Source: Planctomycetota bacterium
Lineage (GTDB): Bacteria > Planctomycetota > UBA1135 > GCA-002686595
Length of the DNA: 38,062 bases
Direction of reading: 5' to 3'
Assembly (NCBI GenBank): GCA_029259655.1
Contig: JAJDET010000016.1
Location: 1-38,062, forward strand
Part shown: in pieces, positions 18,067 to 18,862 of the stretch
How positions within the stretch are numbered: position 1 is the stretch's first letter
Layout: each line of letters starts with the position of its first letter
Notes under the pieces: generated by a model
Databases searched by the model: none
The model's input: the letters and a program-made list of their open reading frames with translations, nothing else
What the model was told of the DNA's origin: nothing
Translations under genes and position numbers: made by a program

Positions 18067-18822
18067 CTAGAGCGGGACAGTGTGCTCCACCATGTAGGCG
18101 ATGATGTCCGCCGACTCCTGGATGACACCTTCGCCGGTGACGAGGGCCGGCGCCTGGTCCTTCCCGGCGCGCTCGCGCAGCTCTTCCAGAGCTCGAGCAT
18201 CCTCCGACACGTTGACGACCGGGAGCGCATCGGAGAGGTGCAGGTTGTCGCGCGCGATGAGCACCGAACGCGAGAAGCCGCAGGCGCTCTTGACGAAGAG
18301 CTTCGCCCCGGCATCGATCCCCGACGGAGCCGCGGAAGCCGGGAGCGAGCCCGAGTATCCGCGGTCGACCTCTTCGCACAGGGCTGCGAGCTCGGCCATG
18401 TCGCGCTTGCCGGAAGGCGTCACGGACGACACGTGGCGAACGACGCCCTCGGCATCGATGACGACCGTGGCGCGGTCGGTGATCCCGTTGTCCTCGAGAT
18501 AGAGCCCACAGGACGCCGCCACCGCCCCCTTGGGGTGAAAGTCCGCCAGGAGCGGGAAGGAGATCCCGTCCATACTGCGCGCCCAGTTCGCGTGCGAGAA
18601 CACGCTGTCGACGCTGATGCCGAGCGGTTGGGTGTGAGCCTCGAGGAACCTGGGGGCCAGCGCTTCCAGCGCCGGGACTTCCTGGCTTCATGTCGGCGTG
18701 AAATCCAGCGGATAGAAGAGCAGCATCACGTGCTTCTTCCCGCGGAACTGGGCGAGGCTCACCTTGCGACCGAGGTGGTCCGACAGGGTGAAGTCCGGGG
18801 CTTTCTCTCCGACGGCGGTCAT
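18067..18822 (-). CDS. Selenocysteine-containing peroxiredoxin-glutaredoxin fusion (in-frame TGA at 18690-18688)
   Basis: Reading TGA at 18690-18688 as selenocysteine gives one 251-residue protein from ATG 18822 to TAG 18067. Residues 1-150 are an AhpC/TSA-type peroxiredoxin: VGEKAPDFTLSD at the start, then YPLDFTPT-Sec45-SQEVPAL, where Pro38, Thr42 and Sec45 match the family's Px3TxxC motif. The catalytic arginine is Arg117 in TDRATVVID. Both sides of the TGA are in the same frame and both are needed for the fold. Residues 172-251 form a glutaredoxin-like thioredoxin fold with CGFS at 181-184 and a probable cis-proline at 225 (APALV). The likely role is reduction of peroxides, with the fused Grx domain or a monothiol partner recycling the selenenic acid. 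A SECIS-like hairpin follows the TGA. Other genes here end normally in TGA, so the code is standard. A nonsense mutation or sequencing error is the alternative, but the exact coincidence with the active site makes it unlikely. Confidence 0.85.
18657..18675 (-). promoter_or_regulatory. Candidate bacterial SECIS hairpin
   Basis: In the message, a stem of seven pairs (CCGGCGC with GCGCUGG, one of them G-U) closes a five-base loop UGGAA. The loop starts 19 bases after the UGA. Bacterial SECIS elements lie immediately after the UGA, with an apical loop roughly 16-37 bases downstream and a G in the first loop positions. Here G is second, or first if the U-A pair forms. SelB would bind here. The hairpin lies inside the coding sequence, as is normal in bacteria. 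Confidence 0.65.
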
Positions 18823-18862
18823 GTCTCGTGGCTCCTGAAATCGGGTTGCGGGGGGACGGACT

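Follow-up and report, generated by a model that had tools for sequence, protein, structure and literature searches.

Does a TGA that falls on the catalytic position of a peroxiredoxin (Prx) gene end translation, betray an error or encode selenocysteine (Sec), and in the last case what kind of enzyme would result? The question is raised by a minus-strand frame of 251 codons in the window analysed here, a stretch of 38,062 nucleotides from a Planctomycetota bacterium; the frame starts with ATG, ends with TAG and contains a sole in-frame TGA at codon 45. The first-pass annotation of this DNA had claimed that the TGA interrupts one continuous peroxiredoxin frame at the site of the catalytic Cys, and this holds, as the sequence reads PLDFTPT-U-SQEVPAL around the codon and the AhpC-TSA profile spans it. 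A second, glutaredoxin-like (Grx) domain behind the peroxiredoxin had been overlooked (Table 1). According to our main reading, to which we give a probability of about 0.8, the TGA is read as Sec and the gene encodes a single-chain peroxidase composed of an AhpE-like domain bearing Sec45 and a Grx-like domain, the Cys181 of which likely returns oxidised Sec45 to its reduced state.

Table 1. Positions in the window of the predicted selenoperoxidase gene and its elements
Feature	Position	Strand	Basis or conservation
Whole gene, 251 residues, predicted to encode a Sec-peroxiredoxin (Sec45) fused to a glutaredoxin	18067..18822	-	
AGGAG, probable ribosome-binding site before the ATG	18832..18836	-	read in the sequence
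AhpC-TSA (AhpE-like) peroxiredoxin domain, residues 4-130	18433..18813	-	Pfam E 1.2e-34, across the TGA
In-frame TGA at codon 45, the peroxidatic site, where Sec is predicted	18688..18690	-	TGA in 24/24 fused loci
Predicted bacterial SECIS hairpin	18657..18675	-	8-bp stem, GGA loop with a closing U-A pair, 20 nt from UGA to loop, -12.2 kcal/mol
Arg117, conserved peroxiredoxin Arg	18472..18474	-	invariant
Cys149, candidate accessory resolving Cys	18376..18378	-	C in 20/24 fused TGA loci
Glutaredoxin/GST-N domain, residues 175-246	18085..18300	-	profile and predicted-structure search
Cys181 of the CGFS (CxxS) motif	18280..18282	-	C in 24/24 fused TGA loci

The PxxxTxxU motif is present within the AhpC-TSA domain, and the residue of M. 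tuberculosis AhpE that lines up with codon 45 is a Cys, which we take to be the catalytic one. Arg117, presumably the peroxiredoxin active-site Arg, lies behind the TGA, as had been pointed out beforehand, and is invariant in 18 of 18 loci encoding the fusion (fused loci) and in all 114 aligned database fragments. The AF2 model has a pLDDT of 96.2 and a pTM of 0.90. AhpE is the nearest subfamily by fold and by sequence; its one-Cys definition does not describe the window protein, in which predicted Sec45 is accompanied by conserved Cys149 and Cys181. The NCBIfam PrxU model NF040737 scored 81.7 bits, under its curated cut-off of 270, and none of the NCBIfam models listed reached its own cut-off.

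Related loci were collected from GTDB genomes, the best 80 of 97 being kept. Codon 45 was readable in 79 of these and was TGA in 48, TGC in 25 and TGT in 6, with no other codon; all 18 fused loci among the best 80 of 97 carry the TGA. From the same phylum 392 genomes were surveyed, 23 of which gave a match (own genome included); they added five fused loci, again all TGA, and the fused set analysed below thus consists of 24 loci: 18 from GTDB, five from the phylum survey and the window. Some of the survey matches contained a second TGA, which we read as a normal stop wherever the sequence was displayed. We left L088, which is fused to a different protein, out of the fused count, and L040 was placed in the unfused TGA group solely because a contig end cuts it. 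The count of 45 unfused TGA loci includes duplicates (the pairs L041/L110, L049/L113, L042/L111 and L054/L121 each represent a single gene across the Prx domain) as well as two loci, L047 and L080, that share one genome. Alignment with Cys-containing homologues, which the first-pass annotation had suggested, matched the TGA to Cys in the unfused DNA relatives and in fused database proteins, six of which are full-length and carry Cys (five) or Trp (one) at position 45.

These loci bear directly on the idea that the gene is a pseudogene, the TGA having arisen by nonsense mutation or standing, through a sequencing error, in place of a Cys codon. The assembly is indeed a draft (376 contigs, 91% complete), and its selA holds an in-frame TAG; however, 23 further fused loci share the TGA, and in all 24 the frames are otherwise open on both sides, with no sign of the decay of both parts in close relatives that a pseudogene had been expected to show. 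Purifying selection is apparent from the median pN/pS over 276 pairs of the fused set, which amounts to 0.41 ahead of the TGA and 0.43 over codons 46-160 and rises to 0.66 in the final 80 codons, the Grx part changing faster than the Prx part; uncorrected p-distances were used because Biopython dN/dS was mostly saturated, and single pairs reach 1.0-1.17. A pseudogene is accordingly very improbable.

A changed genetic code, in which TGA would be a sense codon for Trp, Cys or Gly, might seem to be favoured by four database relatives with Trp at position 45 (P0123, P0124, P0134 and P0135, the first a full-length fusion with Cys181). These proteins, which were excluded from the counts of Cys and Sec forms, probably derive from TGA genes called with code 4. 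The neighbouring genes had been said to stop at TGA, and in this the first-pass annotation was inexact, the immediate neighbours (two sulfatases and the spermine-synthase-like gene) and the gene itself ending in TAG; its conclusion that the code is unchanged stands nonetheless, because TGA terminates family-supported genes elsewhere in the genome, namely senA, senB and the RimK-like and EgtA-like genes. Furthermore, the UCA-anticodon tRNA found in the genome is tRNA-Sec, and in the DNA loci read the TGA is replaced by Cys codons, not by Trp. The probability left to a changed code is negligible.

Decoding of TGA as Sec requires dedicated genes, and a search for selA, selB, selC and selD had been proposed, with absence of selB and tRNA-Sec as an argument against Sec. 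Both were found: selB on contig C328 (346.9 bits, cut-off 242) and tRNA-Sec with the UCA anticodon on C34 (73 bits, cut-off 47). selD, on C240 (336.5 bits), is itself of the Sec type: it has an in-frame TGA, and an 8-bp hairpin comes after that codon. selA is full-length (C34, 484 bits) yet interrupted by one in-frame TAG, codon 291 counted from the frame start at 3654 of L101, and is otherwise intact. This gene is present in 40 of 41 genomes searched, own included, and the full-length matches of the 39 other relatives are free of internal stops; the TAG is an assembly error or a recent mutation. Among genomes with TGA loci, 45 of 47 had a selA score above the cut-off; among those with Cys loci, 18 of 31 did (Fisher 5e-5). 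The TGA batch as searched comprised 48 genomes, 46 with selA and two below cut-off, and included that of L037, whose codon is not visible and whose removal gives the 45 of 47.

A hairpin suited to bacterial Sec insertion lies behind the TGA. The bSECIS model as drawn in Figure 2A of PMC13188914 specifies a loop of 3-9 nt, a stem of 4-16 bp, a G in the first two loop positions, a distance of 16-37 nt from the UGA and a minimum free energy (MFE) <= -7.5, and the window hairpin falls within all four constraints of that published model. Comparison with synonymous shuffles indicates that the codon choice of the fused genes favours bSECIS-type hairpins (n = 24, p 1.4e-4) and separates fused from Cys loci (p 0.011), with the proviso for both values that related sequences are not independent. 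Neither the unfused TGA loci (n = 45, p 0.14) nor the Cys loci (n = 33, p 0.23) showed enrichment over shuffles, and the window taken alone gave p 0.10. Sixteen of the 24 fused loci have a hairpin reaching -7.5 kcal/mol and eight do not. In an initial scan of 42-nt segments the groups differed no more than weakly at offset 0 (Mann-Whitney p 0.13), with a dip seen at +15; a pair test at a fixed position, picked after that scan, gave p 0.0018 for fused, 0.998 for unfused TGA and 0.18 for Cys loci. We prefer the test that uses the published constraints only. Rfam gave no match within the window.

In public databases the gene appears otherwise: the window's own listed protein has 168 aa, the outcome of mechanical gene calling, as if the locus encoded a 44-residue peptide and a downstream protein from an internal start. 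That two such proteins are made is extremely improbable, given that the downstream piece would be deprived of the peroxidatic residue and of the first strands of the fold, and that the start positions differ among truncated relatives (47, 49, 52, 55 and 56 among the matches listed), merely tracking the TGA. The annotation hole is systematic, 191 of 238 relatives among the matches listed beginning directly behind the Sec position; automatic calls breaking the gene at the TGA had been correctly foreseen.

The C-terminal domain was recognised in the whole protein by the profiles GST_N_3 (34.1 bits, cut-off 22) and Glutaredoxin (20.3 bits, slightly below 22.9), and PF00462 matched 25 of 25 C-terminal domains at E <= 0.001. 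This part was also predicted and searched alone, the VIA-align list for the whole model spanning residues 1-159 only, and its Foldseek matches were MglA/SspA, Grx and GST chains. A PDB sequence search with the 79-residue C-terminal domain alone returned no match, whereas the profile search did. Within the domain Cys and Pro are invariant; of the 24 fused TGA loci, 23 carry the CxxS motif, the exception being L108 with CPVC. Cys181 is kept in 187 of 187 domain-holding relatives truncated behind the TGA (among the matches listed), and in three of the five Cys forms, two having lost it (Fisher 5e-4 against the 187 truncated relatives, with small numbers).

In the mechanism that we propose, the UGA would be decoded by SelB and Sec-tRNA(UCA), aided by the hairpin 20 nt downstream. 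Sec45 would be oxidised by peroxide to a selenenic acid, a reaction that follows peroxiredoxin chemistry. Oxidised Sec45 would in turn be reduced by Cys181 of the CxxS domain, perhaps via Cys149 or a low-molecular-weight thiol, either within one chain or across a dimer. The regenerating role of Cys181 is suggested by its conservation pattern, by the operon arrangement described below and by the reduction of AhpE by mycoredoxin-1. Alternatively, Sec might be inserted and then resolved by Cys149 or a small thiol, with the Grx domain acting as a deglutathionylase or a binding module. The distribution of Cys149 would agree with this, the residue being found, besides most fused TGA loci, in 22 of 45 unfused TGA loci and in one of 33 unfused Cys loci, of which 10 and 26, respectively, do not align at this site, as would the faster evolution of the Grx domain. 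Set against it are the retention of Cys181 in every fused TGA locus and in all of the listed truncated relatives that hold the domain, the occurrence of Ala at position 149 in four of 24 fused loci, and the Prx domain of L030, which is without any other Cys. We consider resolution independent of Cys181 unlikely and retain regeneration of Sec45 by the Grx domain.

As for small thiols, glutathione synthesis in the own genome is unsupported by profile search, the single gshB match being RimK-like. An EgtA-like glutamate-cysteine ligase gene lies on contig C334 (L128:502-2607; 209.7 bits, below the cut-off of 370.8). The frame behind it resembles, we assume, EgtD, and ergothioneine synthesis is possible judging from this pair of genes. 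Beside the TGA-bearing selD on C240 stand SenB (L102:2101-3216, plus strand; 356 bits, cut-off 300) and SenA (L102:3226-5001, minus strand; 488 bits, cut-off 420). Together with selD they probably constitute a selenoneine gene cluster, and the genome has genes for predicted selenoproteins as well.

In seven of the 45 unfused TGA loci the Sec-Prx gene ends where a separate Grx-like ORF begins, and these seven are the sister group of the fused loci (support 89-90); an adjacent ORF of this type is absent from the other 38, two of which are cut by contig ends. On a SAR324 contig, a second, CPFC-type glutaredoxin-like frame (L044:4012-4242) is located upstream of the Sec-Prx gene and its CGFS partner. 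The five Cys forms are scattered within the fused Sec group on a tree with few well-supported branches. The Prx domain of the window groups with Myxococcota L021 and L038 (SH-aLRT 91), the kin of the genome being Planctomycetota; gene transfer or a misbinned contig is possible from this placement. A broader proposal, which we advance tentatively and would not bet on, is that these proteins form a widespread, almost uncatalogued group of selenoperoxidases, each complete in itself, that were fused from a two-gene operon and depend on an obligate pair of Sec45 and the built-in monothiol Grx Cys; strict selection on the Grx Cys would last no longer than Sec occupies the peroxidatic site, and this Cys would decay once Sec gives way to Cys. 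For such selenoperoxidases, ergothioneine-type thiols may take the place of glutathione in bacteria rich in selenium. The wider operon count and the Trp form P0123 weigh slightly and in opposite directions, and the odds of our readings are unchanged by them.

To have its oxidised selenium reset, a selenoenzyme depends on a partner, and here enzyme and partner would share one chain. The fusion, the sister two-gene pairs and the natural Cys versions make the reason why selenium is kept testable by direct comparison. What appears to be new, from the gene sequences, is a predicted Sec-peroxiredoxin fused to a Grx, Sec-peroxiredoxins and Cys-type Prx-Grx fusions being already known; the literature searched, with most subscription papers and all supplements outside reach, contained no such Sec-Prx/Grx fusion. 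H. influenzae offers an example of the proteobacterial Prx-Grx fusions. According to the accessible part of PMC2679010, proteobacterial fusions likewise carry peroxiredoxin and glutaredoxin on one chain, with a Grx of the CPYC class, unlike the CGFS-type CxxS motif and the predicted Sec of the window gene. Sec-peroxiredoxins are known in bacteria, as the first-pass annotation stated, from TxxU proteins in print (PMC13188914, PMC1794560, PMC1088965 and PMC9312934, in the portions available). PMC13188914, in those portions, cites PrxU of Eubacterium acidaminophilum as a Sec-peroxiredoxin with PxxxTxxU; the window gene shares with these proteins the AhpC-TSA domain and a TGA/Sec at the peroxidatic position of that motif and differs from the PrxU type in being AhpE-like and fused to a Grx/GST-N domain. 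In M. tuberculosis, as described in the available text of PMC4360819, mycoredoxin-1, a Grx homologue, reduces AhpE; this peroxiredoxin uses Cys rather than Sec, and mycoredoxin-1 is a protein of its own, linked to mycothiol. Finally, ocean metagenomes include a Sec-Prx fused to a PP2C-type phosphatase domain (PMC2398784, accessible in part), which resembles the window gene in having an added domain with a conserved Cys and differs from it in the type of that domain.
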